IMG/VR virus record: IMGVR_UViG_3300009154_005213
Location: 1 to 42,327 of that record
Direction: 5' to 3' (one strand)
DNA length: 42,327 bases
From: a virus
Position numbers and translations under genes: made by a program
Shown here: positions 6,042-40,490 of the stretch, piece after piece
How positions within the stretch are numbered: the first letter of the stretch is position 1
How the letters are laid out: each line of letters opens with the position of its first letter
Notes under the pieces: model-generated
Database searches by the model: none
The model's input: only the letters and a program-made list of their open reading frames with translations
What the model was told of the DNA's origin: nothing

Positions 6042-6060
6042 TTGTTATTGTTCCAAGATT

Positions 6061-7182: not shown

Positions 7183-7197
7183 ATGTCAATTTCCTGA

Positions 7198-8235: not shown

Positions 8236-8269
8236 GCTGGTTTCCGTAAAAAGTTATAATAATATCTGG

Positions 8270-8277
8270 TATTTATG
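8270..8277 (-). promoter_or_regulatory. Late promoter-like box (CATAAATA) for the C-B-A unit
   Basis: On the minus strand CATAAATA ends about 35 bases before the start of paralog C. It has one mismatch to TATAAATA. The longer leader than in sister genes makes this less certain. Confidence 0.45.
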
Positions 8278-8308
8278 TTAAATACCGTGCACAAATAGCA
8301 CTAAAATT

Positions 8309-9067: not shown

Positions 9068-9111
9068 CTGACAAAAGAAAATAAAACTTTGTATGGAGCC
9101 TTGAGTCAGAA

Positions 9112-9987: not shown

Positions 9988-9991
9988 CTGT

Positions 9992-10008
9992 TATTTATCA
10001 GATAAATA
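9992..10008. promoter_or_regulatory. Divergent pair of late promoter boxes
   Basis: GATAAATA on the minus strand (9992-9999) and GATAAATA on the plus strand (10001-10008) lie back to back with one base between them. They serve paralogs D and E, whose starts are only 25 bases apart. Confidence 0.72.
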
Positions 10009-10012
10009 CTGC

Positions 10013-10915: not shown

Positions 10916-10919
10916 ACAA

Positions 10920-11921: not shown

Positions 11922-11925
11922 CAGA

Positions 11926-11933
11926 TATTTATC
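11926..11933 (-). promoter_or_regulatory. Late promoter box (GATAAATA) for paralog F
   Basis: GATAAATA on the minus strand, 4 bases upstream of the ATG; identical context to the box of paralog G. Confidence 0.68.
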
Positions 11934-11959
11934 TAGAGGACGGTATTAAACAATCAATC

Positions 11960-12931
11960 TCAGCTATAAATTCTGAGTAGATCATTCAAATCCTGAAATA
12001 TACTCATATTCAACGCATAGTATTGACCGTGAATATATATCTCATGCCCTGACAGCAATGCTGCATGAAAGTCAGTGCGATCTAATTCCAATTCATTTTT
12101 GATAAAATTAGACTCAATACTGCGTTTTTGTTGTTCATCAACCTCGTTATATGAATTATCAAAAGCATTTATTAAACTATTCCAGTTGCCACGGAGTGGA
12201 TACCTTTCAAATAAATCACTAAACATGTCAGCGTGGGTTCTACTCCAAGTAAAAGAGAATCCATTTATAGGAAATATCATATAAACTTCACCGTATTGTT
12301 TGGCAGCCCAATATGAAGATGTGCACATAATGCTGTTTTCTCGTGTGGCAGTAAACCCATTTTCTCGCATTGCTGCACTTACTTTTCTGTGTGTGTCCCA
12401 TGCAGTATCTTTGGTGAATCGCTCATCCCACGATCTACCGATAAAAGAAAAATCTCTGAATGAATAAGGATAAGTTTTCAGGCCGCGATAAAGCAGTTTT
12501 TGTGCCTGACTGGATTTATTCAAGAAATCGCTGCAGTGTTTTTTAAGATGCTCGTAAGCTCTTAGTGTAGCAGATCTTAGATCTGCACCTCCTTGTACTA
12601 ATTCAGTGTAGTTTTGGTTTAGTAAATCTATTTTTTCACCAGTTTTCTTATGAGCTACCAAAACGTAATCAATCTTTTTATTAAACTGTTTTACAGTATC
12701 TGAATTCGTTTTAAAATTATGATTGTCTAGCCATTCACGTTTTTCAGCATAAAATTTATCCTTCAGACTAGATAGATTTTTTAGTTCTTGATTGAGGTTT
12801 GTGATTTGACTCATTAAATCCAGTGCTTTATTTTGGTCCTCTGGTCGAACACTTAAAAAAGCAGGCCTAGTTTGGCCAGGGTTAAGAGTCGGAATATCCA
12901 GAGTCTCTGGTAAAATTTCATGATATCGCAT
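11960..12931 (-). CDS. ADP-ribosyltransferase-like protein, paralog G, head-targeted
   Basis: 323 residues from the ATG at 12931. A longer reading (ATG at 12973) is possible, but the chosen start matches paralog F exactly (MRYHEILPET) and has GATAAATA 4 bases upstream. ART-like elements match F: LLYRGLKTY, GFTATRENSIMCTSS, YGEVYMIFPINGFSFTWS, GHEIYIHGQYYAL. F and G are a recent tandem duplication with patchy divergence in the coiled-coil region and in the loop after FTWS. It is preceded by a strong divergent early promoter at 12967-12994. Confidence 0.82.
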   Translation of the reverse strand: MRYHEILPETLDIPTLNPGQTRPAFLSVRPEDQNKALDLMSQITNLNQELKNLSSLKDKFYAEKREWLDNHNFKTNSDTVKQFNKKIDYVLVAHKKTGEKIDLLNQNYTELVQGGADLRSATLRAYEHLKKHCSDFLNKSSQAQKLLYRGLKTYPYSFRDFSFIGRSWDERFTKDTAWDTHRKVSAAMRENGFTATRENSIMCTSSYWAAKQYGEVYMIFPINGFSFTWSRTHADMFSDLFERYPLRGNWNSLINAFDNSYNEVDEQQKRSIESNFIKNELELDRTDFHAALLSGHEIYIHGQYYALNMSIFQDLNDLLRIYS

Positions 12932-12935
12932 CAGA

Positions 12936-12943
12936 TATTTATC
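12936..12943 (-). promoter_or_regulatory. Late promoter box (GATAAATA) for paralog G
   Basis: GATAAATA on the minus strand, 4 bases upstream of the ATG at 12931; supports that start over the one at 12973. Confidence 0.68.
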
Positions 12944-12966
12944 TAGAAAATCGGCAAAACCAAAGA

Positions 12967-12994
12967 TTGACAAACCTAAAAAAACATGTATAAT
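12967..12994 (+). promoter_or_regulatory. Strong sigma70-like promoter
   Basis: Perfect TTGACA (12967-12972), 16-base spacer and perfect TATAAT (12989-12994). It is directed at the small gene at 13017 and the structured region beyond it. Confidence 0.85.
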
Positions 12995-13622: not shown

Positions 13623-14318
13623 ATGAAAAACGCAGCAGTAGTCTTATTAAGTGGTGGACTAGACTCAGCAACAATGCTGGCTTTGGCATCACAGGATTTT
13701 CGAGTATACGCACTGAGTTTTGATTACGGGCAACGACATGCTCATGAATTAAATTGTGCCCGAGCATTAGCTCAGCAAGCAAATGTTGAACAGCATGTGA
13801 TTCAAAAGATTGATTTAAGAGCATTCGGCAGATCTGCACTGACCAGTGACATTGAAGTACCCAAAGATGAACTGGCGCCTGATTTGGTCAGTGTGATTCC
13901 TGTGACATATGTGCCGGCTCGCAACACTGTGTTTCTGAGCTTTGCTGTGGCATGGGCAGAAACATTAAATGCAAATGATATTTTTATTGGTGTCAATGCT
14001 CCTGAAGGCATGACACGATACCCAGATTGTCGCCCAGAATATATTGCAGCATATGAAAACATGGCTAATCTGGCTACCAGAGCTGGATTTGAAGGTGAAA
14101 GATTAAAGATTCACACACCATTGATGAACATGACAAAAACAGATATTATTCGCACCGGGAACGCACTGGGCATGGATTACAGCAACACCAGCAGTTGTTA
14201 CGATCCTGCAGACTCAGGTCAGCCATGTGGTCATTGTGATCCATGCTTGCTCAGAATCAAGTGCTTTGCAGAACTAGGGTTAGAGGATCCGCTTTTGATA
14301 AAATGGAATATGTGTTGA
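13623..14318 (+). CDS. queC: 7-cyano-7-deazaguanine synthase QueC
   Basis: 231 residues, full length for QueC. The ATP-pyrophosphatase P-loop SGGLDS is at residues 10-15. FDYGQRH, a conserved segment on nucleotide-activated CDG substrates ([16 protein letters not shown]), and a C-terminal zinc-binding Cys cluster (CYDP...[11 protein letters not shown]) follow. QueC converts 7-carboxy-7-deazaguanine to preQ0 with ATP and ammonia. PreQ0 feeds queuosine in tRNA or 7-deazaguanine modification of phage DNA. No other pathway gene (folE, queD, queE) or DNA transglycosylase is visible here, so it relies on host or distant phage genes. It lies inside a tRNA array. Confidence 0.95.
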
Positions 14319-27244: not shown

Positions 27245-28216
27245 TTAGTCAATATTATTGAAGTAAGTATCTAACACAAAGAAGAGTTCTTTACGTAACT
27301 CTTCTTTCCAATCAAATCTGCTGCTCACCCTTGATATTAGATTGCGATATTCATTACTGTTAAAACAATAATGACCAGCTACGCTAACCATCAAGTCGTG
27401 AGAGTTTCCGTCAGACCATTTCTTCCATTTGTTACTGCTTATAACAGACTCAGAAAAATTATTCCATTCTTGCTTTGCAATAGCTTGTGATAAGGATCTC
27501 AATAGTTTAGTCTGTACCACTCCAAGCTGAGGAGCAATATTTAATGCATGCACTCCACATTGTTTTCTGAGATTAATTGAAGAAGAATCTAGATAATCTG
27601 CGTTGTGCTCTTTCAATGAAACGCTGTTTTCGTTTGCGATTGACACCAATTCTTTAGTTATGTCTGCTCGAAAATCTCCTGCCTGACGATCTTCATAAAC
27701 CAAGCTACCAGTCTGGGCTACCACAAAATCCATGTTAGGGAATTGTTTTGCAAAAGAAACATCTTGTTTATATTTTTCTACACTAGCTGCAATGCCAATA
27801 TTCTCTTCAGTTCCAAATTCAAATCGTATAGTTGGTTTGAGATCTAAACAAAATCGAATTAGCTCTTCTGCAACAGTAAATGGGTTTTCGCATCGAGAAG
27901 TATCTATATGAATTAGATCGAATCCGTTTTCAATGTCATTATTAATTGTTTTCTTGGTAGCTTTTATCGCATCATTGATAGATAATGATTTTTCGCTATC
28001 GAGAAAATACGGTCCGCAATGATCTCTGCAGAGCTTAATATTACTTGTGTCTAGAGAAGATAGTTTATTAGCTAACTCTCTTGTGGTCATTACATAACCA
28101 CTGTCGGCATCTATTTGATTTCGACTAGCGATAATCATCAATGGTTTATTATATTCACACAGTAATTCAATGATTTCTGGACTCATTGGCCCAAATCCAA
28201 GTTTGTAATTATCCAT
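27245..28216 (-). CDS. GatZ/KbaZ-like TIM-barrel aldolase-family protein
   Basis: 323 residues, last gene of the sugar operon. CRDHCGPYF (about 61-69), GFDLIHIDTSRC (about 96-107) and LKEHNADYL with HALNIAPQLG (about 199-228) match the GGDHLGP, GFxxIHLDxS and TDYxxL...LKVGPALT blocks of D-tagatose-1,6-bisphosphate aldolase partner proteins. The exact reaction is unknown; C-C bond formation or cleavage on a sugar phosphate is plausible. It overlaps the HAD phosphatase gene by 8 bases, so it works with it and the AroE-like gene. Confidence 0.72.
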   Translation of the reverse strand: MDNYKLGFGPMSPEIIELLCEYNKPLMIIASRNQIDADSGYVMTTRELANKLSSLDTSNIKLCRDHCGPYFLDSEKSLSINDAIKATKKTINNDIENGFDLIHIDTSRCENPFTVAEELIRFCLDLKPTIRFEFGTEENIGIAASVEKYKQDVSFAKQFPNMDFVVAQTGSLVYEDRQAGDFRADITKELVSIANENSVSLKEHNADYLDSSSINLRKQCGVHALNIAPQLGVVQTKLLRSLSQAIAKQEWNNFSESVISSNKWKKWSDGNSHDLMVSVAGHYCFNSNEYRNLISRVSSRFDWKEELRKELFFVLDTYFNNID

Positions 28217-28670
28217 TTTTTATCCTGTTTATTAAGTAAAGACATGCATCTAATACTGCACCTTCGCTGCTTGCGTTAGGGGTAACATACGATGCAGCGT
28301 TGCGTGCTTCTATTCTAGCATTTTGCGGTGCGATAGAAATAGCCATATGGGGAAAGATAACCGCATCAAATATACCATCCCCCATATATGCAGTAGTAGC
28401 GAGATCAAAATTATCTCGTATCCATTGTAATCTATCATTTTCCCCTACAATGGAGAGTTTGTACCCCATGTGTTCAACAAGTCTAGCATGAGATATAGAC
28501 GCACCTGACTTGTCGGCAGTAACAAACTCAAAATTGCAATATTGTTTAATTAGCTTAAGTCCGTCATGGTCGTGTGCCCCAAATACTTTAAACATTTTTC
28601 CATTTTCTGAATAGTATATTTTGCCATCAGTCATAACACCATCTACATCCAAAATAAAATTATTGATCAT
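28209..28670 (-). CDS. KdsC-like HAD phosphatase
   Basis: 153 residues, the size of KdsC-type C0 HAD enzymes. Motif I is ILDVDGVMTDGKIYY (nucleophile Asp and +2 Asp at residues 8 and 10); motif II is VTADKSGAS in place of Thr/Ser-Gly-R; motif IV is YMGDGIFDAVIF; the usual VTPNASSEGAV tail is present. These tetrameric phosphatases act on 3-deoxy-octulosonate-8-phosphate, nonulosonate-9-phosphate or related sugar phosphates. Here it overlaps both neighbours (8 and 11 bases). Confidence 0.9.
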   Translation of the reverse strand: MINNFILDVDGVMTDGKIYYSENGKMFKVFGAHDHDGLKLIKQYCNFEFVTADKSGASISHARLVEHMGYKLSIVGENDRLQWIRDNFDLATTAYMGDGIFDAVIFPHMAISIAPQNARIEARNAASYVTPNASSEGAVLDACLYLINRIKNG

Positions 28671-29388
28671 ACATTTCCTTTATAGAAGATTGCATGATAC
28701 TTATATCTGCATCTTTGTCGAAATATAATTTATATTGGGCTGCAGCTTGACGAAGACTGATATCAATGCCATTGATTGAATTTTTACTTAGACGTACAAA
28801 TTTAGACATTTTTACTACGCTATCTATTGCTAAACTATGAGAATATGAATCCACAGGCGAAGAATCATCCAGCATACCAATAGGCGTTGCATTGATTATA
28901 GTATCAAATTTTTCTGATATTAAATTGTGCCAGTTAGATCGTGTGATCAAAACATATGGTACTGTAATCGCTGCTTGAAAAGCACGACTCATACCCCCGT
29001 TTCCCAATAGTGCTATTTTTCCATGTGCTTGGGTTAATGCCCAATGTGCTCCATTTAAATCAGTGTTGTAGCCGACAAGAACACGATCTCTATTAACTAT
29101 AGTATTCACAGCGCCAACTGCTAATGCTGATTCATCTATTTGATCTAGATATTGCATCACTTCAATTTTAAATGGCATTGATACGCTACAGCCAGTGATA
29201 TCATTAGTTCTAATGATAGATATTGATTCTTGTAAATTGTCAGTGCTGCAGGCTATATATTCAGCATCTAGATTATGATGAGCAATCATCGTGTTATGAA
29301 CACGGACTCCAAATTTTCCTGGGTATCTAGCTAATGATATTACTAACTTATTATAAGTCCTGGTGTTTAGTGCATCTTGTATTCTCAT
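28660..29388 (-). CDS. Shikimate-dehydrogenase-like (AroE family) protein
   Basis: 242 residues. The substrate-binding domain has SVSMPFKIEVMQYLD (Lys of the catalytic pair at about 74), AVGAVNTIV and GYNTDLNGA (Asp at about 109). The Rossmann part has IALLGNGGMSRAF and DTIINATPIGM. All match AroE blocks. A full shikimate function seems unlikely in this operon; a related keto-cyclitol or keto-sugar acid may be the substrate. It is somewhat shorter than AroE (about 270). Overlaps with both flanking genes indicate coupling. Confidence 0.85.
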   Translation of the reverse strand: MRIQDALNTRTYNKLVISLARYPGKFGVRVHNTMIAHHNLDAEYIACSTDNLQESISIIRTNDITGCSVSMPFKIEVMQYLDQIDESALAVGAVNTIVNRDRVLVGYNTDLNGAHWALTQAHGKIALLGNGGMSRAFQAAITVPYVLITRSNWHNLISEKFDTIINATPIGMLDDSSPVDSYSHSLAIDSVVKMSKFVRLSKNSINGIDISLRQAAAQYKLYFDKDADISIMQSSIKEMYDQ

Positions 29389-30938
29389 CGAAGTCTTTTC
29401 TTTTCAAACCATTGCGTAAAATAATACTGTGATAGCCCGTAAAGAATTTTATCAAACGGCGCAGAATGCAAAGGGCTCATATTAATGTAGATAATAGGAA
29501 CTAATAACGATATCTTATCCATATCATAGTTGTTCGATTCTACAAAATTTTCAAAGATTTCAAATATTGCATCATCTTGACTTAAATGGGAAATATTTAT
29601 TTCCAAGCTCTTATCAAATTGGGAACTATGCAAATATCCTTTTTTGATTAAGTTGTAGTTTAGTATCATCCCGCCGTACATCTTGGCTAAATCGTAATAT
29701 ATATCCCCAAAGTAACTGTTACTGAATTTTTGTCTCCAATCTAGTAACACAAATTCATGATTGTTGCATAGAATATTATCGAATTGTAAATCTCCGTGGG
29801 TGAAGGATGAAATCCCATCACACACAGAATCCCAATCTATCATTTTAATACATGTTTGCAACGGCAAAACTTTATAGTTATTCACTGTTTCAAAATCAGA
29901 AAAACTTGTATATTTTTCGTAAAATTTTTCTATCCTGCCAATCGTCTTTTTATAATAAAAATCATAACATTTTTTTTTGAAATCTGATTCTACCACTGGA
30001 AACCATACAGATGCTTGAAGCCAGTTCAAAAATGTGCCAAACATTTCAGGTGTTATATTTTCGTAAAGGGTGTTACCTTCAATGCGATTGTAATAATGAA
30101 AGTTTCCTCGATGACTAAAATCATGTGGAAAAACTTTTTTGTTGAACAACACTCTGATATATTTGTCATATGACACATTTGGATCACTATGGAATTTTAT
30201 TATTTTGCCATTGACATCATAAAAAAACTCATCTGTCTTACAAAAATCAAAATCTTCGACTTTAGAAATCTCAGCTTTATAAAGATCGTAAGTACCAAAA
30301 TCTTGCCAAGATAACGGATAAGCATATAAATTTAAATTATCTTGAAATCCCTGACTTATTTCAGTTTTATATTCGATAGTTTTGCTCATATTATCAAAAA
30401 ACATATCTGGATCTTTGATATGCATCAAGCCTATAAAACTTTGGAAAGAATCGTCACAATATTGTTTGTCTACTATTTCCAGCACTTTCTCATCAACGGC
30501 TTTTATGTTGCAATATTTATAACTCTGTTCTGACGGTCTCGTTGCTATCCCTATCCAATTTTTATCTTGATTTTTGTCAATGACAAAATCATTGAATAAT
30601 GTGTCGCATGATACAAAATAAAATCTATTGCTTAAATGTTCACGACATTTATATAAACTCTGTGCAGGTCCAGCAGAAGGAGAGTCATAGTTAGGGACAT
30701 CTACAAAAGTTACATTTATGCTTGGATGTGCGATTCTGATATAGTCAATCACTTGCTCTGAATTGCAGCCTACTGCAATGACAAATGTTTTATCTTCACC
30801 AAATTGTTCAATAATGTGACTAATTAATGCTTTGTTTTTATAAGGCAAGAGTGCTTTATTGATTATCGAAGAATACGGTCCCATACGAGAACCTAACCCT
30901 GCAGTCAAAATACATACTGAAAAATCAGAAGTGTTCAT
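29385..30938 (-). CDS. Sugar nucleotidyltransferase fused to an APH/choline-kinase-like kinase
   Basis: 517 residues, two domains. Residues about 1-230 form a nucleotidyltransferase: ILTAGLGSRMGPYSSIINKALLPY carries the GxGxRM and Lys of NTP binding, with FVSCDTLF as metal-binding Asp and QDNLNLYAYPLSWQDFGTY near 215-230. Residues about 250-517 are a phosphotransferase: SFTHGDLQFDNILC near 396 (catalytic Asp) and VLLDWRQKF near 416 (metal Asp). Kinase plus nucleotidyltransferase in one chain would turn a free sugar or amino-alcohol into its NDP-activated form, as AmgK/MurU or LicA/LicC do in two proteins. Substrate unknown. Confidence 0.85.
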   Translation of the reverse strand: MNTSDFSVCILTAGLGSRMGPYSSIINKALLPYKNKALISHIIEQFGEDKTFVIAVGCNSEQVIDYIRIAHPSINVTFVDVPNYDSPSAGPAQSLYKCREHLSNRFYFVSCDTLFNDFVIDKNQDKNWIGIATRPSEQSYKYCNIKAVDEKVLEIVDKQYCDDSFQSFIGLMHIKDPDMFFDNMSKTIEYKTEISQGFQDNLNLYAYPLSWQDFGTYDLYKAEISKVEDFDFCKTDEFFYDVNGKIIKFHSDPNVSYDKYIRVLFNKKVFPHDFSHRGNFHYYNRIEGNTLYENITPEMFGTFLNWLQASVWFPVVESDFKKKCYDFYYKKTIGRIEKFYEKYTSFSDFETVNNYKVLPLQTCIKMIDWDSVCDGISSFTHGDLQFDNILCNNHEFVLLDWRQKFSNSYFGDIYYDLAKMYGGMILNYNLIKKGYLHSSQFDKSLEINISHLSQDDAIFEIFENFVESNNYDMDKISLLVPIIYINMSPLHSAPFDKILYGLSQYYFTQWFEKKRLR

Positions 30939-31389
30939 CTCTTATCAATCCGTGTGTTCGGTTTGTATCGTCTTGCAATCTATATACATCATCTAGTTCT
31001 ACAGTGCTAGTTTCAATAAAGGTTAAATCTTCAATTGCCATTACTCTGTGAATACACCCTGCCCATACATGGCAAACTACGCCTGGAATTAAATCAAACA
31101 CCTGAAGTTCTGAAATAATTATATCTATGTCTCGTTTTGTATAGTTGCCGCTGTGAAATCTATCAAAATCAAATAAATCAGGATGATAAAGAAGATGTCC
31201 ATGTCCAGACAACACATAATTAGTTTCTGATTTATATTGATGTACTTGCAGGCTAGTTCTGTTGCCCGCTTTGAAAAAAATTTCTTTTAATGCATACTGA
31301 TGTTTTGGTGCCCCCGGCGATATCCAGAGTTCGTGGCCCCACGGTTTTGTAACTTTCTTACAATCTTCCATTTTAAAATATTCTATCAT
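30925..31389 (-). CDS. Cupin protein, mannose-6-phosphate-isomerase type II-like
   Basis: 154 residues of a single cupin. KPWGHELWI (residues about 15-23), LQVHQYKSETNYVLSGHGHLL (metal-binding His and Glu), and PGVVCHVWAGCIHRVMA match the type II phosphomannose isomerase or sugar-epimerase cupin. It overlaps the fusion gene by 14 bases and follows the 4,6-dehydratase by 8 bases, so it probably acts on a sugar phosphate in the same pathway. Confidence 0.85.
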   Translation of the reverse strand: MIEYFKMEDCKKVTKPWGHELWISPGAPKHQYALKEIFFKAGNRTSLQVHQYKSETNYVLSGHGHLLYHPDLFDFDRFHSGNYTKRDIDIIISELQVFDLIPGVVCHVWAGCIHRVMAIEDLTFIETSTVELDDVYRLQDDTNRTHGLIRDEHF

Positions 31390-31397
31390 ATATCACC

Positions 31398-32342
31398 TTA
31401 CCATACTAAATTATTGAGATAATAACTCACAATGTCAGAAAGTTCAACATCGAAGTTTGCCTTAGGCTGCCAACCTAATGAACGTATTTTTGTGTCATCG
31501 ATTGAGTATCGTACATCACCACCTATTCTAGTAGTATGATACAAATATGGTTCTATGTCTTCAACATTGCCTTCTACAAGATGTATTATTTTTGTTATAA
31601 CTTCTCGGATGCTCAACTCATAAATTCCAGATATATTGAATATCTCGTTTTTCACACCACTTTCAATGATTGTTGTGACTGCATCAGCAGTGTCAGATAC
31701 ATGAAGCCATGTACGAATAGGTTCTCCTCTATCATGCACATGAATTTGTTTTCCTATGCTCATGTATTTTATTGTTTTTGGAATTAATTTTTCAGTGTAT
31801 TGCCCTATGCCGTAATTATTTGTAGGTCTGACAATTATATAAGGAACATTGTGTGTTCTGGCCCACGCCAACACCAACATATCTGCTGCTGCTTTGGTGG
31901 CACTATAAGGATTACTTGGGCAAAGTAAATCTTTTTCAGTATGCGACCCTTCTACAATATCCCCGTACACTTCATCTGTACTAAAATGCAATAGTGTAGG
32001 CATTCTAAAAGATACTTTTTGTTTTATTAACTTTAGTAAATGATGTACGCCATTGACATTACTATGAAGAAATCTGTCGCTATCTTCGATGCTGTTATCA
32101 ACATGAGTTTCAGCTGCAGTGTTGATTATATAATCGCAGTCATACAAATGTTCTAAGTCATTTATGTCTGAATGTATAAATTTGAAGTTGGGGTTTTGCC
32201 GAAACTCTTCTAAGAAGTTGGTGTTACTAGCATAGGTCATATTATCTACACCAATAACATACCAACCTTTGTCTAAACATTTTTTAGTTATATGGACGCC
32301 TATAAATCCCAAGCAACCTGTCACATATACTATTTTCTTCAT
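31398..32342 (-). CDS. RmlB-like NDP-glucose 4,6-dehydratase (SDR)
   Basis: 314 residues from the ATG at 32342 (MKKIVYVTGCLGFIG); an upstream ATG would add 13 unlikely residues. NAD motif GCLGFIG, TAAETHVDNSI as in RmlB, FSTDEVYGD (catalytic Thr-Asp-Glu), YSATKAA (Tyr/Lys), RPTNNYG, RTWLHVSDTADAV, and a C-terminal GGDVRYSIDDTKIRSLGW all fit 4,6-dehydratases. It makes an NDP-4-keto-6-deoxy-hexose, the entry to 6-deoxy and 3,6-dideoxy sugars. The nucleotide (dTDP or CDP) cannot be told by eye. Confidence 0.9.
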   Translation of the reverse strand: MKKIVYVTGCLGFIGVHITKKCLDKGWYVIGVDNMTYASNTNFLEEFRQNPNFKFIHSDINDLEHLYDCDYIINTAAETHVDNSIEDSDRFLHSNVNGVHHLLKLIKQKVSFRMPTLLHFSTDEVYGDIVEGSHTEKDLLCPSNPYSATKAAADMLVLAWARTHNVPYIIVRPTNNYGIGQYTEKLIPKTIKYMSIGKQIHVHDRGEPIRTWLHVSDTADAVTTIIESGVKNEIFNISGIYELSIREVITKIIHLVEGNVEDIEPYLYHTTRIGGDVRYSIDDTKIRSLGWQPKANFDVELSDIVSYYLNNLVW

Positions 32343-32362: not shown

Positions 32363-32823
32363 TCAACGTCGATCTATCCATGCAGGATTAGACACATACC
32401 AGTTTACGGTAGATTCTAACTGATTCCATAAATTATGATTATTAGTCCAGCCGTGCTCGAACAATTTAGATTCACTCATTGAAAGATATACTTCATGCCC
32501 TGGTCGATGATCTACCACAAAATTAAATTTAGGTTCAACATTTAACATGTCTGCAATTTTTGTCGCAAAGTCTAGATTGGTAATAAATTGTGATCCGGTG
32601 CTGTTCCACTTTTCGCAAGTAGTTTTTTGACAATCTAGAATAAATCTAGTATGTAAAGCCACATCAGGCGCGTAAAGCCACTTTCGACCTCCAATATTTC
32701 CGCTCGAATCTACGTGTATATTCAGTGGATATCCTGCGCGTAGATTTTATAATCTTTGATAAATTCTTCGACTAAAAAATGACCCAAGAATCCAGTGGCT
32801 CCTGTTATTAGCATGTGTTTCAT
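32363..32823 (-). pseudogene. Internally deleted sugar-nucleotide dehydratase/epimerase
   Basis: From the ATG at 32823 the frame starts as an SDR (MKHMLITGATGFLGHFLVEEF) but stops after 33 codons. In another frame the sequence resumes as SDR C-terminus: NIHVDSSGNIGGRKWLYAPDVALHTRF, then FITNLDFATKIADMLN and VDHRPGHEVYLSMSESKLFEHGW. About 150-200 residues including the catalytic Tyr-Lys are missing, and the junction (near 32733) shifts the frame. A clear remnant of a second 4,6-dehydratase beside an intact one. Confidence 0.87.
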
Positions 32824-32886: not shown

Positions 32887-33867
32887 TTACACTGGTAATA
32901 TGTAGTTACTGAACTTTTCTTTGTTGTCAACTAGATATTTTGGATGTGTGCTTTCTGTTATATCAATTATAGATTCTGGTATTTTTAAATTAAATTCTTG
33001 TACAATTTGATCGATTGCTTCTTCCATTGTATTAAGATCTGCCCTACGTTTTCCTGGATTTCCTACATAAAGTAAATCGAAACAATGTGCCCAACTATGC
33101 ATTTTAGCTAATAGTTTTTTGCCATCTATTGTATCATCCATGTAAGACAAGTGCCATCCGGCTTTCTTGATGGGTGCATGTGTGCCTGCACTAAGAACTC
33201 TCATTGTGCATGGCATCATTTTACAAAAATTGCTATATTCAGTCATGACACCAATTTTATGCCTGTCGCCATGTCCCAGATCGGCTGGATCTTCGAATAA
33301 AATATTCATTTTATAAATGAACATATCTGGTTCAAACCAAACTATTGGTCTTACATTTTCTAGTATTGTGCTTCCACTTTCCAATTTATGACTAAAATGT
33401 TGTCGTCCACACAAATCTATAGCATTATATGTTTGGTCAGTGTCTTGAAAATACGTCAAAGCAGTTTCGACCGCAGTTCTATTGAGTATTTCATCTGCTG
33501 CACATACCAATACTATATCATCTGGTTGAAGATTTAGTTCTCTAAGAGCAGTTATTGCATAATTACATTGAAACTGATCTCGACGATACTGCATTTGATT
33601 ACCGCGTGCTGCATTGGCAATGGCACAGTCAATGTCTGGATGTTTTAACATTTCAAAGTCAAAATCGTGAATTTTTACATACACTATTTTTTCTTTATAT
33701 TTTTCAAATCGTTTTTCATCAAAGTTGAAAGGCTTAGGATTACCTGCGTGCGTGACATCAGCTTCAACTATAATAAACTTTTCGACCCAATCCCAATGTT
33801 CATTTATACGAATTTCAACAACATCATTTTCTTGCCAAAATAGAAAACAATCGTAAATTTTTTTCAT
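32887..33867 (-). CDS. GT17-like glycosyltransferase
   Basis: 326 residues. MKKIYDCFLFWQENDVVEIRI and VEKFIIVEADVTHAG at the start and a central VLVCAADEIL (DxE-type motif about residue 127) match glycosyltransferase family 17 (N-acetylglucosaminyltransferase III group), also common in bacterial and phage glycan loci. The late WHLSYMDDTI also fits. It likely transfers the sugar made by this operon. A second copy of the family lies at 40622. Confidence 0.85.
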   Translation of the reverse strand: MKKIYDCFLFWQENDVVEIRINEHWDWVEKFIIVEADVTHAGNPKPFNFDEKRFEKYKEKIVYVKIHDFDFEMLKHPDIDCAIANAARGNQMQYRRDQFQCNYAITALRELNLQPDDIVLVCAADEILNRTAVETALTYFQDTDQTYNAIDLCGRQHFSHKLESGSTILENVRPIVWFEPDMFIYKMNILFEDPADLGHGDRHKIGVMTEYSNFCKMMPCTMRVLSAGTHAPIKKAGWHLSYMDDTIDGKKLLAKMHSWAHCFDLLYVGNPGKRRADLNTMEEAIDQIVQEFNLKIPESIIDITESTHPKYLVDNKEKFSNYILPV

Positions 33868-33905: not shown

Positions 33906-34922
33906 TTAACTTTTGCGTTTGGTCTCTGATAAATTCTGCGCTATCTCTATTATCAAGCTTTCTTGCCCTGCAACTGCCTTTCTCTTTCCTAACTCGACGA
34001 ATATATCTCGGGCATCGATATTGTATTTTTCTGCTGCGGCTGCAACTTGCTTGCTAAACACAGACACTACACCAGACAGTCCACTGATAACAGATGTTGG
34101 CGAAATATAGGGTGCTACAGGATTAAAAGTTTTTTCTGCTAATGACGCAGCATCTAGTATTCTATACAAATCTATGCCTGTTTCGTAACCTAAACGATGC
34201 AACACTGCAACCAGTACTTCAAGTTGCGTGTTACCAGCACCTCCGCCAAAACCCCTAATAGAACCATCTACTATTGTAGCACCTGCTTCTACAGCAGCAA
34301 CAGCATTGGCTACACCAAATCCTAGATTGTTGTGCCCGTGAAATCCTACAGGAATACTTAGTTCATCAAGCAAGGCGCGAGTTTTTTCTGTAACGTCTTG
34401 CGGAAGCATGTTACCAGCTGAATCCATTATTACAAATGCTTGGGCACCATATGATTCCATTTTTTTAGCTTGTTCTACCAATACTGTGGTAGGGCACATA
34501 TGACTCATCATCAAGACTCCAAATGCTTCTTTATCTTGATTTCGCACATACTCGATGTGACGCTTGGTAACATCTGCTTCAGTACAATGTGCACCTACCC
34601 TAAAAATGTCCATTCCACATCCAATAGCTTTTGCAAAATGATTTTTCACAGTACAAATACCAGGAATAGCGTGTATTGCTAGCTTTGCTTTAATAACAGC
34701 TTGTCTTGCAGTGGAGATAATTTGTTCATCAGTATGTAAACACTCCCCTATAAGAAGAGATGATGCGCCTAATCCGTTTCCGTGGCCTACTTCGATTACT
34801 GGTACATTGGCTGCTTCAGCAGCCTTGCAATAATCAGAAAAATTTTGAAGGGTAAGTTGGTGCTTTACGGCGTGATTTCCGTCTCGTAGTGTAGGATCAC
34901 AAATCAATATTCTTTTATTCAT
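33906..34922 (-). CDS. 4-hydroxy-2-oxovalerate aldolase-like protein
   Basis: 338 residues from the ATG at 34922, which overlaps the previous stop (ATGA). HMG-CoA-lyase-type TIM barrel: CDPTLRDGNHAVKHQ (metal-binding Asp and Arg), VIEVGHGNGLGASSL, FRVGAHCTEADV, MDSAGNM, and VGFHGHNNLGFGVANAVAAVEAGA with GFGGGAGNTQLE all match DmpG/MhpE. It splits 4-hydroxy-2-oxo acids into pyruvate and an aldehyde, or runs in reverse. Paired with its usual channelling partner, the acetaldehyde dehydrogenase, immediately upstream. Confidence 0.93.
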   Translation of the reverse strand: MNKRILICDPTLRDGNHAVKHQLTLQNFSDYCKAAEAANVPVIEVGHGNGLGASSLLIGECLHTDEQIISTARQAVIKAKLAIHAIPGICTVKNHFAKAIGCGMDIFRVGAHCTEADVTKRHIEYVRNQDKEAFGVLMMSHMCPTTVLVEQAKKMESYGAQAFVIMDSAGNMLPQDVTEKTRALLDELSIPVGFHGHNNLGFGVANAVAAVEAGATIVDGSIRGFGGGAGNTQLEVLVAVLHRLGYETGIDLYRILDAASLAEKTFNPVAPYISPTSVISGLSGVVSVFSKQVAAAAEKYNIDARDIFVELGKRKAVAGQESLIIEIAQNLSETKRKS

Positions 34923-35809
34923 TGTTTTTCCTTTGCAGTGGACATGCATTCTATCAATCTGATTGCTGCACAGTTTATTATGTCTAGATTGCCTGCATAA
35001 GAAGGCAAATAATCACCTGCTCCCAGTACTTTCACTGTGGTGAGTATGTGATTACCTACTACTGTAGGTGGTACAATTAGAGAATAACCTGGTACGTATT
35101 CATTGAGTTGTTTTACCATTGATTCAACTGAATCACGGATCTCTGTGATGCGTGGGGTTTTTATCTTGGCATAGATCGTGGTCTGCATATCAATTTGTGG
35201 TACAGCAGGATTTAAAATTAATATAGCTTTGGTTTTTTTAATTCCTGTAAATTTTGATAGCGCATATTCAGTCGTTTCAATATATTCATCCAGATTGTCT
35301 CGGGTAGCCGGACCAGCACTTAGAGAAGCAATGTTTGACGATACTTCCAGATATTCAATATCATCATGAACTTGTGAAATAGCATAGGCGATAGGAACGC
35401 TTGTTTGCCCACCACAAGTTACCATGTTCATATTATTAATCTGATGGTTTGCAATGCACTGATCAGCATTTAGAACAGGTATACACAAGTCACCTATTTT
35501 AGCTGGAGTCATATCTATCACTGGTTTGCCTAGTTTTTTCAACAAGGGCCAATGTTCTATGTGACTTTGTGCTGAAGTGCAGTCGATGATAATATCACAG
35601 ATTTCTGGATTATCTATTACTGCTTGATATCCCAGGTTCGTGGTATGAATACCTAGGTTTTTTGCTAGTTGCATTCCCCGAGATTCAAGATTTCTACCTG
35701 CGAAAACTGCACATTCGAGTCTATCTGATTTATGCACTTTGACCATTAGATCAGCCCCTATATTGCCTGTGCCTATAATCGCAACCTTGAGTTTATTTGA
35801 ATTATTCAT
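34919..35809 (-). CDS. Acylating acetaldehyde dehydrogenase-like protein
   Basis: 296 residues, as DmpF/MhpF. VAIIGTGNIGADLM binds NAD; DMTPAKIGDLCIPVLN and the catalytic Cys in MVTCGGQTSVPIAYAI (about residue 132) are diagnostic; NIASLSAGPATRDNLDEYIETTEYAL is the usual next block. It converts acetaldehyde and CoA to acetyl-CoA. In a sugar operon with a ThDP enzyme it may supply or remove a two-carbon unit. Confidence 0.93.
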   Translation of the reverse strand: MNNSNKLKVAIIGTGNIGADLMVKVHKSDRLECAVFAGRNLESRGMQLAKNLGIHTTNLGYQAVIDNPEICDIIIDCTSAQSHIEHWPLLKKLGKPVIDMTPAKIGDLCIPVLNADQCIANHQINNMNMVTCGGQTSVPIAYAISQVHDDIEYLEVSSNIASLSAGPATRDNLDEYIETTEYALSKFTGIKKTKAILILNPAVPQIDMQTTIYAKIKTPRITEIRDSVESMVKQLNEYVPGYSLIVPPTVVGNHILTTVKVLGAGDYLPSYAGNLDIINCAAIRLIECMSTAKEKQ

Positions 35810-35821
35810 GCGTTTTTACTT

Positions 35822-36553
35822 TCAAATCTTCACTATCATTTCTCTGTCTAGCTCTTCGTCAGTTAAAAACGGTGCTAGATCATGCAAACCACATTGTTTG
35901 CCATTTTTAATTGCCTGAGATGGCTTTATTTCTTGCGTTTCTTTACATAAGCAGTTTATTATCATCGAGCGTTCAGTGGCAAGCAATGAGGATAAATTTT
36001 CTAGATCACGAACACACGATAGTTCTGCGTAATCCAGCTGAAAGCTATGTGCGATGTCTTTAAAATTTGGGAACCACAACCCACTGGTACCACTGCTACC
36101 GTACACTCTGTTTTCAAAATATTTTTTCTGCGTGTTTTTGATACTGAGATAACCGTTGTTATTCAATATCACAAATTTAATTTTTAGCTGATGCTGTGTA
36201 ACAACTGCCAATTCTTGTATGTTGCTCATGAAACTGCCGTCCCCTATTATTGATATAACAGGACGTTCACAAGATAAAGCAACTCCTATCGCACCAGGCA
36301 AAGCCCAACCCATATCACCCTGGCCTGTACTGTAGATGATACGTTGAGAATCATGAACTTCTAGCATGGTAGGACCAAGATAATATGCACTGCCGGCATC
36401 ACCCATAAAAATAGCATCTGATGGACTATGACGATTGATACCATCCATTACTGCATATAAATCTAATCTACCATCAGAATCATCAAGATATTCATCTTGC
36501 ATCACAGGCCACTGTGATTTCCATCGAGCACAAGTATCATTCCAGCTTGTCAT
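35822..36553 (-). CDS. ThDP-dependent enzyme, C-terminal (PP) subunit
   Basis: 243 residues holding the pyrophosphate-binding domain of acetolactate-synthase-like enzymes. IFMGDAGSAYYL, YSTGQGDMGWALPGAIGVAL, and the metal/ThDP motif GDGSFMSNIQELA...LNNNGYLSIK (GDG...NN, about residues 117-150). It has no PYR domain; that is in the preceding gene, which it overlaps by 4 bases. Together 582 residues, the length of a normal single-chain enzyme. See the partner entry for the proposed role. Confidence 0.9.
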   Translation of the reverse strand: MTSWNDTCARWKSQWPVMQDEYLDDSDGRLDLYAVMDGINRHSPSDAIFMGDAGSAYYLGPTMLEVHDSQRIIYSTGQGDMGWALPGAIGVALSCERPVISIIGDGSFMSNIQELAVVTQHQLKIKFVILNNNGYLSIKNTQKKYFENRVYGSSGTSGLWFPNFKDIAHSFQLDYAELSCVRDLENLSSLLATERSMIINCLCKETQEIKPSQAIKNGKQCGLHDLAPFLTDEELDREMIVKI

Positions 36554-37569
36554 AGCATTTCCTTGAAAAAATCTTTTAGGTCTAAATGGTATTTCTTGTC
36601 GATAGTGATAGTTGGTTTATTTAGTTCTGAAATATCACAGTCTACAAGTATTTTAAAGCTATGAGGACTAAATTGCAGAGGATCATAGCCTATAACGCTG
36701 CTTCCCAAGCTGCTGCCTAGAATAAGTAAAAGATCTGCATTTTGCATAGCGAAATTGCCAGCCCTGCTGCCTTTGATACCTACAGCACCAATGTTAAGGG
36801 GATTAGAAAATTCCATGTAATCTCTGGCGCCATATGTGCTCACATAAGGTATCTGATACTGGTCGATAAACGAAACAAACTGATCAACAGCATTAGCCTG
36901 CTTGATACCAAATCCAGCTAAAACCAATGGTCTTTGATAAGTTTTCAAACACGTTTTTACAGAGTCTAACTCTACATGCTGTTGTTTTGTTTTTGGTAAT
37001 TCAGACGGATCAAATATTCTGAAATTTTCAGGCATCAACGCAGTTTGAATGTTGTTAGGAATGTCAATCCAGACTGGCCCTGGGCGACCGTCCAATGCTG
37101 TGTACACTGCTTTTTGTATCATGTACGGGACATCGGCTGGGTCTACAATAAATTCAGCCATCTTGGTCATAGACTTAACACTGGAAATAATATCGTGCTC
37201 TTGAATGCCGTATTTTCTCAGTCTTAGATTATATTTTTGGTTTATATAGGACGAACAGTTGTGTGAAGCAACGTTGCCTGATACAAACAAAATTGGCGTA
37301 GAATCTTGCCAAGCGTCTAGAACACTGGTTGCACAATTTGTGCCTCCGCAGCCAGTGGTAGGATTTACCACTGCAATCTGGCCTGTGAATTTTGATTCTC
37401 CGATGGCACTGTGACCAGCACCTTGCTCATGGTGATAACAGATGTACTTTATCAGACCGTGTTTGATAAAGCCGTCGTTCAGTCCGCTGGCGCCACCACC
37501 CATTACACCGTGAACTCTTCTTACTCCAATATTGTACAAATACTGTGCTATCCAATCACATATTCTCAT
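36550..37569 (-). CDS. ThDP-dependent enzyme, N-terminal (PYR plus middle) subunit
   Basis: 339 residues. The PYR domain has the activating Glu in YHHEQGAGHSAIG (about 43-55) and TTGCGGTNCATSVLDAWQDSTP. The middle domain follows (KTYQRPLVLAGFGIKQANAVDQF, YGARDYMEF, DLLLILGSSLGSSVIGY). The chain stops where an intact enzyme would continue into the PP domain, supplied by the overlapping next gene. Acetolactate-synthase-like ThDP enzymes such as YerE add a two-carbon unit from pyruvate onto a CDP-4-keto-3,6-dideoxy sugar; the RfbH gene upstream makes that substrate type. The split form and sugar role are inferred. Confidence 0.9.
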   Translation of the reverse strand: MRICDWIAQYLYNIGVRRVHGVMGGGASGLNDGFIKHGLIKYICYHHEQGAGHSAIGESKFTGQIAVVNPTTGCGGTNCATSVLDAWQDSTPILFVSGNVASHNCSSYINQKYNLRLRKYGIQEHDIISSVKSMTKMAEFIVDPADVPYMIQKAVYTALDGRPGPVWIDIPNNIQTALMPENFRIFDPSELPKTKQQHVELDSVKTCLKTYQRPLVLAGFGIKQANAVDQFVSFIDQYQIPYVSTYGARDYMEFSNPLNIGAVGIKGSRAGNFAMQNADLLLILGSSLGSSVIGYDPLQFSPHSFKILVDCDISELNKPTITIDKKYHLDLKDFFKEML

Positions 37570-37570
37570 T

Positions 37571-38389
37571 TTATGAAACCTTTGTTTCCTTAAGACATTT
37601 TATATAAGATTTAAATCCCTCGTCTAAACCAGTCAATGATAGGTTAAGACAAGAAAGAAAATATCCATTTCCGGTATAGTTTAGCTGAGATCTTGAACTA
37701 ATGAAAAAAGTTTTTGGTAAGTTGTTAACCTCACAAAATCTATCTAGTGCTTCACTGATTCGTATTTTTTCTTGATACACTGCGTTCACATCTTTTATGC
37801 ACCAAGAGTTTTCTGCGCAATCCCTTATTACAACACACAAATCCTGAATACTGATGTAATCAAAATATCTATCATTGGTTATTTCAATTAGCCCGTCTGA
37901 ATTTAAATAACGTGCAAACAATCGTGTAGAAGCTTCTCCTGCACCAAAACAGTTGAATATGCGTATGGTATAAAATTTGTCCGTGAAAAAACAGATTCTA
38001 CTCTTGACATTTAGTCCAAATCCATAACTGTCGCTAGGCATGGCGTCAAATATCTCAGATTCAGTTGCTTGATCTATATTTCGATTTCGATCAAACTCTG
38101 CGCCCGAACCTAAATTTATAAACTTTCCAAATAATCCTCGACATGCGTGAATATTCATAAACAATCCCAGATTGTTTCGACTGTCATCTAGTAAATGTTC
38201 AGAAGTATATGATACTGCAGCATTAATCACCACATCATATTTTTCACGCATAAAATGACTGCGCACTGCTGACGAATCCAACAGATTTAATACGTCTCGT
38301 GTTATTTCATGAACTTCATGATCTCTTGACATATCTAGACTAATGTTACGGCCTACAAATCCATTAGCCCCCAATATAGCTATTTTCAT
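37571..38389 (-). CDS. NAD(P)-dependent sugar epimerase/reductase (SDR)
   Basis: 272 residues from the ATG at 38389, giving MKIAILGANGFVGRNISLDM; the longer upstream reading is junk over the previous gene. NAD motif GANGFVGR, DVVINAAV, NLGSGAEFDRN, YGFGLNVKSR (YxxxK near 137-145, Tyr and Lys spaced unusually), and RIFNCFGAGE near 165. It resembles the GDP-fucose/RmlD-type reductases. In this context it may reduce a keto group of the branched sugar (YerF-type role). It ends one base before the next start. Confidence 0.8.
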   Translation of the reverse strand: MKIAILGANGFVGRNISLDMSRDHEVHEITRDVLNLLDSSAVRSHFMREKYDVVINAAVSYTSEHLLDDSRNNLGLFMNIHACRGLFGKFINLGSGAEFDRNRNIDQATESEIFDAMPSDSYGFGLNVKSRICFFTDKFYTIRIFNCFGAGEASTRLFARYLNSDGLIEITNDRYFDYISIQDLCVVIRDCAENSWCIKDVNAVYQEKIRISEALDRFCEVNNLPKTFFISSRSQLNYTGNGYFLSCLNLSLTGLDEGFKSYIKCLKETKVS

Positions 38390-38475
38390 AGTAAATAGTC
38401 CTTGAACTTTATTCAAAAAGAACACCAATCGTATACAGTCATTTAATACTCTTTTAACACTGTCATTTGTCTTTC

Positions 38476-39135
38476 TTAAAAAATAATCTTTTTCATGATT
38501 TCTGAGGCTAATCGGATTTTTTCTTGATATCTTATTGCTGGATAATGACAAACGAAATCGCCTAGTTGCCAATTTCCGTTATTGCCAAAAAGATCCCAAT
38601 CATGTGTGTTACCGTGATCTTGATAGTAATAATCATAGTCAAAACTATTGAAATCTCTCTGAGGATGAATTTTAATGATGCTTTGAAACTGTTCAATGGT
38701 GTCGATCATCGCTTGTTGTTCTGCCCATTTCTTGTCTAAATATTCTTGTTCCAAACTCAGCAAATACTTGAAATAGTTTTTGCTTTCCAATGTATTGCGT
38801 AAAAAATATGAACCAGCATTGAGGTTATAACGATCAACTGTGATAATACATTGATAGTCTGGATCGCACCATTGTTCAAGCGTAGTTTGAAAATTTGTTA
38901 TCATGGCATCACAATCCAGCCACCATGTCCATTCAATTTCTGGATTGTTCTCAAGCACCTCCAGATGATATCTAAATTTATCAAACATTATTTCAGGTAT
39001 TGTTGGACTAAAATTGTTTGTTTTCACAAATAACTTATATCCATGTCGTTCACAGTAAGGCACTTTGTTTTGAGTGCAGGTTATTTCTGCTAGTTCAGCA
39101 TATGCTTGATCGTGCATGGTCACAATGGCGTACAT
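38476..39135 (-). CDS. GT34-like galactosyl/mannosyltransferase
   Basis: 219 residues. MYAIVTMHDQAYAELAEITCTQNKVPYCERHGY at the start, FDKFRYHLEVLE, and WTWWLDCDAMITN (DxD at about 73-75) followed by NLNAGSYFLRN and WAEQQAMID match the GMA12/MNN10 family (GT34). It transfers a hexose from an NDP-sugar to a glycan. It sits second in the operon, between RfbH and the SDR. An 86-base gap before the SDR start holds no gene. Confidence 0.85.
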   Translation of the reverse strand: MYAIVTMHDQAYAELAEITCTQNKVPYCERHGYKLFVKTNNFSPTIPEIMFDKFRYHLEVLENNPEIEWTWWLDCDAMITNFQTTLEQWCDPDYQCIITVDRYNLNAGSYFLRNTLESKNYFKYLLSLEQEYLDKKWAEQQAMIDTIEQFQSIIKIHPQRDFNSFDYDYYYQDHGNTHDWDLFGNNGNWQLGDFVCHYPAIRYQEKIRLASEIMKKIIF

Positions 39136-39173
39136 AAAAACCTCGATGTTAGACGTCAGATATTTATAGAGTT

Positions 39174-40490
39174 TCAGATTACTGAATTCATAAATTTATT
39201 CACTACAGAACCAATATATTCTATCTGTTCTGGAGTAATCACAGGGCTGGTACCGTGAAAGAATGTATGCGTCATTGCATGTGTGGCATTTGGAAACTCT
39301 GACATTGCTTTGTTTGGATCCATCAGATGACTATATGCTGGCTGTAGCATGATGTTGCCTGCAAAATATGGTCTAGTCTGAATTAGGTTTTCTTCTAGAA
39401 AATCAACCAACTGACTTCGTGTGAAAGGAGCAGTGGATCTAACTGTTAGAGGAAAAGCGAACCAACTTGGATTGCTGCCTGCAGTGGCGCGTGGCAAATA
39501 AAAGAATTCTTCATAGTTGCGATAGATATCAAACAATAAATCATAGTTGCGACGACGTAACATGTGAATCTCATCAAGTTTATCTAGCTGAACTAGTCCC
39601 ATACTGGCCTGCAATTCAATAGGTTTGAGGTTATATCCTATTTCATCATAAACATATTTGTGGTCAAAAATTTCATTTGGTAATGTCGGAATCCAATTCT
39701 TGAATCGTTCTTTACATGTACCGCATTTGAGCTTGTTGGCTTCAGGTCCAGCGCAGTAGCATCCACGACCCCATTCTCGTAGATTCCTCAAAATCATGTC
39801 TTGCATGCTGTCACTGGTAGCTACGAACCCGCCTTCTCCCATAGTCATGTGATGGGCAGGATAAAAACTGCAGCTAGACATCAATCCAAAACTACCCAAT
39901 GTCTGGTCATTATACGTGCTACCCAGTGCATCACAACAATCTTCCAGTAACACCAGGTTGTATCGATTCACTAGATCCATTACCTGATCCATGTTGGGCG
40001 GATTGCCTAGAACGTGTGCAAAGGTGATCACTCGAATATCATGCTGCTTGATCAGTTCTTCTGCTTTAGTCAAATCAAGATTTAGCGTATCTAGTTCGAT
40101 GTCTACAAACACTGGTTCAAACCCAACTTGCAGCGTAGGATTCAACGTGGTCGGGAATCCTGCAATTGGTGTGAGAACTTTAGTTCCCTTGGGCAAAGCC
40201 AATCCTCTCTTGCTGGTCAGACTAGCCATCATAAGCAGATTACTGCTGCTGCCACTATTGGTCAAAATACCATTTTTATGGCCAAGAATCTTGGAAAACT
40301 TTCGCTCAAACTTGAGACCATCTGTGCCCAGTACTAGCCAGCCGTTTAAAAGGCTTTCTACCGCCGCAACGTATTCTTCAGAGTTAAAATACGGACCAGC
40401 GTAATTTACGAAATCTTTGCCGGCTACCCATGTCTTTTTAGACTGTTGTTCTTCTATGTAATGTTTGACCTGATCTAGAATATCTTTCAT
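39174..40490 (-). CDS. rfbH: RfbH-like CDP-4-keto-6-deoxyglucose 3-dehydratase
   Basis: 438 residues, the expected length. PLP fold of the DegT/DnrJ/EryC1 family, but the Schiff-base Lys is replaced by His (SFYPAHHMTMGEGG, His213-214), the hallmark of the E1 dehydratase. A Cys-rich segment (GCYCAGPEANKLKCGTC, about 242-258) fits its [2Fe-2S] site. YDEIGYNLKPIELQASMGLVQLDKL follows. It uses PMP to remove the 3-hydroxyl of a CDP-4-keto-6-deoxy sugar, giving a 3,6-dideoxy sugar. First gene of the minus-strand operon, hence the best guide to the pathway. No separate E3 reductase gene is visible. Confidence 0.93.
   Translation of the reverse strand: MKDILDQVKHYIEEQQSKKTWVAGKDFVNYAGPYFNSEEYVAAVESLLNGWLVLGTDGLKFERKFSKILGHKNGILTNSGSSSNLLMMASLTSKRGLALPKGTKVLTPIAGFPTTLNPTLQVGFEPVFVDIELDTLNLDLTKAEELIKQHDIRVITFAHVLGNPPNMDQVMDLVNRYNLVLLEDCCDALGSTYNDQTLGSFGLMSSCSFYPAHHMTMGEGGFVATSDSMQDMILRNLREWGRGCYCAGPEANKLKCGTCKERFKNWIPTLPNEIFDHKYVYDEIGYNLKPIELQASMGLVQLDKLDEIHMLRRRNYDLLFDIYRNYEEFFYLPRATAGSNPSWFAFPLTVRSTAPFTRSQLVDFLEENLIQTRPYFAGNIMLQPAYSHLMDPNKAMSEFPNATHAMTHTFFHGTSPVITPEQIEYIGSVVNKFMNSVI

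Follow-up and report, generated by a model that had tools for sequence, protein, structure and literature searches.

A candidate phage pathway for a carbon-branched 3,6-dideoxy sugar

The gene block and its enzymes

Here, we analysed a block of putative sugar-biosynthesis genes in an uncultivated virus, IMG/VR record IMGVR_UViG_3300009154_005213; the window is the entire viral record, 42,327 bases long. The block lies on the minus strand and, read from 40490 to 33906, encodes an RfbH homologue, i.e., an E1-type NDP-4-keto-6-deoxyhexose 3-dehydratase (39174–40490), a GT34-type glycosyltransferase (38476–39135; Pfam Glyco_transf_34, E 2.4e-20), an extended, RmlD/epimerase-like short-chain dehydrogenase/reductase (SDR; 37571–38389; Pfam Epimerase), a thiamine diphosphate (ThDP) enzyme, an acylating acetaldehyde dehydrogenase of the DmpF/BphJ type (34919–35809), and a DmpG-type 4-hydroxy-2-oxopentanoate (pyruvate) aldolase (33906–34949). 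Family matches place all the genes named in the initial annotation within these limits. That annotation described them as contiguous, and they do form one block, although the GT34 gene separates rfbH from the SDR gene; it also treated the ThDP enzyme as the product of a single gene, whereas there are two (36550–37569 and 35822–36553), overlapping by the stop/start tetranucleotide ATGA (36550–36553). The block recurs in a second IMG/VR contig from another metagenome (3300032271_001718), with 99.5–99.8% DNA identity.

The RfbH homologue scores 453.8 bits with the NCBIfam model PRK15407, above the cut-off of 423, finds its best PDB matches in 3bcx/3bb8, and has the E1 residue His220, which replaces the aminotransferase lysine, together with Cys193, Cys251, Cys253, and Cys261 for the [2Fe-2S] cluster; a five-residue insertion precedes the last of these cysteines. 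The proposed supplier of the RfbH substrate, a 4,6-dehydratase of the dTDP-glucose type, is encoded farther along the same strand (31398–32342) and scores 298.5 bits with the dTDP model TIGR01181 versus 67.8 bits with the CDP model; its ten best PDB matches are all dTDP-glucose dehydratases. Ahead of its gene lies an RmlB-like C-terminal remnant (32363–32662) that is not present in the near-identical contig L002.

The N-terminal ThDP gene encodes the PYR and middle domains (Pfam TPP_enzyme_N and TPP_enzyme_M), with the catalytic Glu48 invariant in 19 sequences, and the C-terminal gene encodes the PP domain (TPP_enzyme_C) with GDG and the NNNGYLSIK cofactor motif (GDG...NNNGYLSIKNTQ). A 4-nt overlap joins the two genes in 56 of 58 phage loci (ATGA in 54, TTGA in 2), and the split enzymes recovered in our scan of viral contigs for the ThDP enzyme form one clade in a tree of 93 sequences. 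Given this common junction and the single clade, we take the split to be an inherited trait, and frameshift or sequencing error as its origin is ruled out. When the two halves are joined, the best PDB matches are JanthE (8rph, 260 bits) and 5ahk (221 bits), presumably PpYerE, ahead of acetohydroxyacid synthase (AHAS) I (187 bits). Entry 8rph is the published structure of JanthE (PMC12188165). The initial annotation had named beforehand, as the outcome that would speak against its reading, firm grouping with the housekeeping acetolactate synthases; instead, IlvB, IlvG, IlvI, and AHAS I form a clade of their own (SH-aLRT 99), and the window enzyme falls in a phage clade within the YerE-like family. 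A housekeeping acetolactate synthase is thus rejected. Against the acetolactate synthase models, the halves reach at most ~182 and 94 bits, the cut-offs of ~500–1000 bits being set for full-length enzymes. The enzyme is best described as a YerE-like lyase/carboligase that is predicted to accept a ketone. Together with the intact His220 and four cluster cysteines of RfbH, this supports the carbon-branched 3,6-dideoxy-sugar pathway that the initial annotation had put forward.

Both members of the aldolase/dehydrogenase pair are well above their family cut-offs. The aldolase scores 373.6 bits with TIGR03217 (cut-off 286) and 268 bits with PDB 1nvm, contains the DmpG_comm domain, and keeps its metal-binding and catalytic residues, Arg17, Asp18, His21, His200, and His202; the dehydrogenase scores 363.9 bits with TIGR03215 (cut-off 282) and 262 bits with PDB 7z3s, its catalytic cysteine aligning in TCGGQ. 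Among 398 genomes of the phylum that includes Thiomicrorhabdus, the top five aldolase matches (55–65% identity) all have sugar genes as neighbours; the next-best match has 52% identity, and no catabolic homologue exceeds 46%. In phylogenetic trees, the window aldolase, all six from bacterial sugar clusters, all sampled viral ones, and two encoded beside aminotransferase-like genes form one clade that is set apart from 24 catabolic aldolases, DmpG included (support 99–100). The two groups also differ at the positions that set product stereochemistry. Catabolic aldolases have Leu88/Tyr291 in 23 of 24 cases and Ile/Tyr in the remaining one; this Leu/Tyr pair, which enforces the 4S product, is replaced by His88/Val291 in the window aldolase and, in 45 viral relatives with intact catalytic residues, by His/Phe (39), His/Met (4), or Phe/Phe (2). 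A role in aromatic catabolism is rejected by the tree position and by residues 88 and 291. In BphI, the double mutations L87N/Y290F and L87W/Y290F at the equivalent positions give the 4R acid in place of the 4S acid (PMC3962088). Because these stereochemistry-setting residues are changed in the window and in its viral relatives, the phage aldolase is likely to be 4R-selective or relaxed. On this residue pattern, 4R selectivity, which in BphI came with a double mutation, would occur naturally in a DmpG-family pyruvate aldolase. An isoleucine of similar size aligns with BphI Leu89, which limits the length of the aldehyde.

Two bacterial loci, L198 and L199, carry pairs of the biosynthetic clade next to aminotransferase-like genes and without sugar genes; these pairs perhaps make 4-hydroxynorvaline.

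Spread of the pathway and apparent exchange of donor genes

Related genes are widespread among uncultivated viruses. The scan for the ThDP enzyme yielded 74 loci, 70 of them with an RfbH/DegT-type gene nearby and 60 with a homologue of the 4,6-dehydratase. A scan with the single aldolase sequence matched only the twin contig and gave a misleading picture of rarity; this view was replaced by that from a profile of six bacterial relatives, which recovered 52 viral loci, L254 being unrelated. The aldolase gene of the 51 new loci is accompanied by a ThDP gene in 44, the dehydrogenase gene in 43, and rfbH in 33, usually in the order ThDP–dehydrogenase–aldolase and spaced a few tens of bases apart; with ~44 of 50 viral contigs that have this type of aldolase also having a ThDP gene, the association of the two is beyond chance. 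Contigs with these genes reach 337 kb. The statement in the initial annotation that no such phage-encoded pathway was known survives for named phages, given that 50,697 named phage records are devoid of these genes save for distant homologues and bacterial contigs: the ThDP matches show low identity (mostly ≤33%) and appear to be housekeeping enzymes or to come from bacterial contigs, and the aldolase and dehydrogenase matches belong to a Salmonella contig filed as phage. It fails for viruses at large, because versions of the pathway are carried by more than 100 uncultivated viral contigs, even if neither the pair nor this ThDP enzyme occurs in any named phage among those records.

The content of the slot near the phage ThDP gene varies. 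In 32 loci it holds a class I aminotransferase, and in others an HpcH/HpaI-type aldolase with dehydroquinate-synthase-like and FabG-like enzymes, a ketopantoate hydroxymethyltransferase, an E1-dehydrogenase-like pair, or nothing. Since substituted 2-oxo acids are the products of the aldolases and the hydroxymethyltransferase, and aminotransferases yield 2-oxo acids generally, the slot genes look like suppliers of the donor for the ThDP enzyme, and the donor supply looks exchangeable. A pair of short genes lies near the slot in L028 (5220–6380), L030, L211, L246, and L253, the first gene matching E1 dehydrogenase in Pfam. In the phages with HpcH-type genes (L059–L063, L068, and L075), GEG replaces the GDG of the ThDP enzyme in the five sequences that were read.

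Traces of exchange are apparent in pairwise comparisons. Between the window and L060, the genes for RfbH, GT34, the SDR, and both dehydratases are 72–80% identical at the DNA level, whereas the ThDP and donor genes cannot be aligned; between the window and L037, the ThDP genes are 66% identical, and L037 has an aminotransferase in the donor slot. The window aldolase clusters with those of L205–L208, but the window ThDP enzyme does not cluster with theirs, and the pairing of DmpFG with the ThDP enzyme changes at least 5 times on the ThDP tree. These patterns suggest that large phages make exotic sugars of their own and trade the module on which the side chain depends. A broader generalization, to which we would give somewhat less than an even chance, is that huge phages combine a constant core acting on dTDP instead of CDP sugars (4,6-dehydratase, RfbH, and YerE-like ThDP enzyme) with exchangeable donor cassettes, namely, DmpFG with reversed, 4R stereochemistry, an aminotransferase, an HpcH aldolase with a dehydroquinate-synthase-like enzyme, or a ketopantoate hydroxymethyltransferase. 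If so, each phage would furnish the glycans of its virion, its DNA, or the host surface with a sugar of its own, perhaps as a means of evading defence or shutting out rivals.

Bacteria possess comparable clusters. In Thiomicrorhabdus arctica (L088), a single run comprises genes for an E3-like reductase, rfbF (TIGR02623, 477 bits), rfbG (TIGR02622, 509 bits), rfbH, the dehydrogenase, the aldolase, an SDR, the ThDP enzyme, and another SDR. Clusters of the pair with RfbH-type and ThDP genes are also present in G226, G064, Elusimicrobia G002, and G756, the ThDP enzyme of the last being 52% identical to JanthE, so that at least 5 bacterial clusters, including that of Thiomicrorhabdus, join these components. 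Besides, G261 has the pair, an SDR, and a ThDP gene on a short contig, and G049 has rfbF, rfbG, and rfbH with the pair on a contig that stops before any ThDP gene. The bacterial ThDP scan covered the best 80 loci, and frequencies within it are biased. In the window as in the bacterial clusters, a 3-dehydratase, a ThDP lyase, and a supply of a 4-hydroxy-2-oxo acid lie together, the combination expected of an erwiniose-type pathway.

The pathway genes of the window very likely extend beyond the block to 27245, given that a 326-kb phage contig, L205, keeps most of the additional set beside the same genes. Following the aldolase gene on the minus strand are a GT17-type glycosyltransferase (32887–33867; Pfam Glyco_transf_17), the 4,6-dehydratase, and a series of overlapping open reading frames (27245–31389) recognized by family matches as a cupin, an NTP-transferase/kinase fusion, an AroE-like protein, a KdsC-like phosphatase, and a GatZ-like protein. 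In L205, the order is RfbH–ThDP–dehydrogenase–aldolase–SDR–dehydratase, followed by homologues of the cupin, NTP-transferase/kinase, KdsC-like, and GatZ-like proteins, i.e., four of the genes between 27245 and 31389. Scans of the window for promoters and terminators gave nothing above chance.

A proposed pathway and its alternatives

We consider it probable, although well short of certain, that through these genes the phage makes a 3,6-dideoxyhexose whose C4 carries a four-carbon branch, an erwiniose-like skeleton of ten carbons. The sequences establish what the genes encode, to which clades the enzymes belong, which residues are kept, and that the genes cluster recurrently and their modules are exchanged; from these, each reaction, the direction and stereochemistry of the aldolase step, the nucleotide, and the target of the sugar are inferred. 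The phage 4,6-dehydratase would act on host NDP-glucose, probably dTDP-glucose, and RfbH, drawing electrons from ferredoxin or flavodoxin reductases of the host, would take away the hydroxyl at C3. The dehydrogenase, running in the reductive direction, would convert acetyl-CoA to acetaldehyde and hand it to the aldolase, which would combine it with pyruvate into 4-hydroxy-2-oxopentanoate, probably the 4R form. The two-subunit ThDP enzyme would then decarboxylate this acid and add the 3-hydroxybutanoyl unit to the 4-keto sugar, the branch ketone would be reduced by the window SDR, for which the only PDB match is the RmlD ortholog 1vl0, or by a host enzyme, and the GT34 or GT17 enzyme would transfer the sugar. 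The glycosyltransferases suggest a glycan on the virion, on DNA, or on the host surface as the destination. Because the decarboxylated donor leaves a four-carbon acyl unit on a six-carbon keto sugar, the product would be a ten-carbon sugar; erwiniose has ten carbons as well, in agreement with 6 + 4. There is precedent for the carboligation: ErwE accepts functionalised 2-oxo acids such as 4-hydroxy-2-oxopentanoate for addition to a 4-keto-3,6-dideoxy sugar (PMC12247030), and JanthE accepts 4-hydroxy-2-oxovalerate with benzaldehyde as the acceptor (PMC12188165), both facts stemming from one research group.

Several observations weigh against this scheme. The 298 bits of the 4,6-dehydratase are under the curated dTDP cut-off of 365, and neither a CDP-glucose pyrophosphorylase nor, in a search without a positive control, an E3 homologue was found in 20 related phage records, mostly fragments. 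The window SDR has YGFGL, with leucine in place of the YxxxK lysine that is kept in 32 of the 45 aligned sequences, which makes branch-ketone reduction the least certain step of the pathway. The window ThDP enzyme lies outside the clade in which 27 of 30 ThDP enzymes from DmpFG-bearing phages fall together with JanthE (approximately unbiased test, p 2.6e-61, for a grouping picked after viewing the tree); JanthE's rare CDG motif is present in 39 of 43 such enzymes, whereas the window has GDG. Moreover, its split kin usually adjoin an aminotransferase gene or no donor module, so that the donor preference of the window enzyme cannot be read from its nearest relatives.

As for E3, its absence would be no bar to RfbH function, since SpnQ, a related 3-dehydratase, draws on general-purpose ferredoxin or flavodoxin reductases (PMC8987622). 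No convincing RmlA was found in the 20 phage records, and a more distant phage contig, L217, carries rfbF and rfbG homologues; judged by sequence, the sugar nucleotide in the window is probably dTDP. The SDRs of L060 and L068 have glutamine at the position of the YxxxK lysine.

The initial annotation had suggested either a variant two-carbon supply or a different branch. The latter has gained ground, the pair likely making a five-carbon 2-oxo acid, and the former has become less likely. We regard as unlikely a two-carbon, yersiniose-type branch for which the ThDP enzyme would use pyruvate or acetaldehyde, with the pair merely supplying or salvaging acetaldehyde and pyruvate. YerE itself uses pyruvate, JanthE accepts it as well, and a donor module is missing from many of the phages whose ThDP genes are closest; however, a two-enzyme module would be superfluous where pyruvate is already abundant, the ThDP tree shows repeated pairing of DmpFG with this enzyme family, and the aldolases show clade-specific changes at both residues that set the C4 stereochemistry of the five-carbon acid. 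It seems improbable that the branch is longer or modified, through use of another aldehyde or through action of the GatZ-, KdsC-, and AroE-like proteins on the donor, yielding a caryophyllose-like sugar. The caryophyllose enzyme MMAR_2332 does have the donor preference of ErwE, the bacterial cluster L194 has an HpcH/HpaI aldolase in addition to DmpFG, and linked genes of unassigned role are conserved, but the dehydrogenase belongs, well over the cut-off, to the acetaldehyde (acetylating) family, and the isoleucine at the aldehyde-length position is similar in size to BphI Leu89.

Two further readings deny the window a working sugar pathway. That the copy in the window is a mosaic, in decay or recently recombined, that yields no functional product appears quite improbable: the catalytic residues of RfbH, the aldolase, the dehydrogenase, and the ThDP enzyme are intact and in neither contig is a reading frame of the pathway interrupted, in spite of the SDR without its catalytic lysine, the RmlB-like remnant (32363–32662) and a deletion near 38400 that set the window apart from L002, and the pairing of DmpFG with an unusual ThDP clade. 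A role of the ThDP enzyme and DmpFG in central metabolism during infection, be it branched-chain amino acid synthesis or acetaldehyde and aromatic catabolism, is scarcely credible. The family names of the single enzymes point that way, DmpFG being best known from aromatic degradation, yet the ThDP enzyme does not belong to the clade of housekeeping acetolactate synthases, nor the aldolase to the catabolic clade, the neighbourhood showed neither ilvC nor ilvD nor any gene for ring cleavage, and the usual neighbours are RfbH, 4,6-dehydratase, and glycosyltransferase genes.

Phage context and known systems

The window also encodes a single-strand binding protein, UvsX, RNA ligase, and QueC (13623–14318), along with 16 tRNAs. 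Its UvsX is closest (64–69%) to those of the huge phages Agrobacterium phage Atu_ph07, Sinorhizobium phage Phosso, CBB, and GAP32, so that the window is probably a piece of a huge phage genome. In several related phages of the L012–L047 group, the surroundings of the sugar cluster include QueE-, QueD-, and FolE-like genes, recognized by eye, which hint at a possible 7-deazaguanine modification of DNA. Elsewhere in the window (4911–12973), six tandem paralogous open reading frames of ~290–376 amino acids, on both strands, share FRG, TSS/TCTS, and HE-I-GxYYA motifs and look ADP-ribosyltransferase-like by eye; those at 6061–7182 and 10013–10915 have no convincing Pfam match.

The proposed pathway combines elements of several known systems. 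SpnQ of spinosyn biosynthesis is, like the phage protein, an RfbH-type [2Fe-2S] 3-dehydratase for which general reductases replace E3; it acts on TDP sugars, in an antibiotic pathway, on a substrate already deoxygenated at C2. DmpFG and BphIJ of aromatic degradation are homologous to the phage pair and share its catalytic residues, but the biosynthetic clade to which the phage proteins belong is distinct, with other stereochemistry-setting residues (His88 and Val or Phe291) and a biosynthetic gene context. The yersiniose pathway of Yersinia likewise unites RfbH/E1, a ThDP carboligase (YerE), and a reductase; it differs in the two-carbon branch derived from pyruvate, the CDP sugars, and the dedicated E3, and, to our knowledge, includes no DmpFG pair. 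Similar in chemistry is erwiniose synthesis in Pectobacterium atrosepticum, where the YerE-like ErwE adds a functionalised 2-oxo acid to a 4-keto-3,6-dideoxy sugar (PMC12247030); that pathway serves a bacterial O-antigen and uses a CDP sugar, whereas the phage ThDP enzyme is split and CDP-glucose genes are absent from the window. Finally, JanthE of Janthinobacterium sp. HH01 is the closest solved relative of the window ThDP enzyme and is encircled on the tree by most ThDP enzymes of DmpFG-bearing phages, although it is a single chain with CDG and the window enzyme is split, has GDG, and belongs to another clade. The physiological substrates of JanthE are unidentified (PMC12188165). Given that its nearest relatives in our set, 27 phage and two bacterial ThDP enzymes, are encoded in clusters with the pair that makes 4-hydroxy-2-oxopentanoate, this acid is a candidate donor for JanthE itself.

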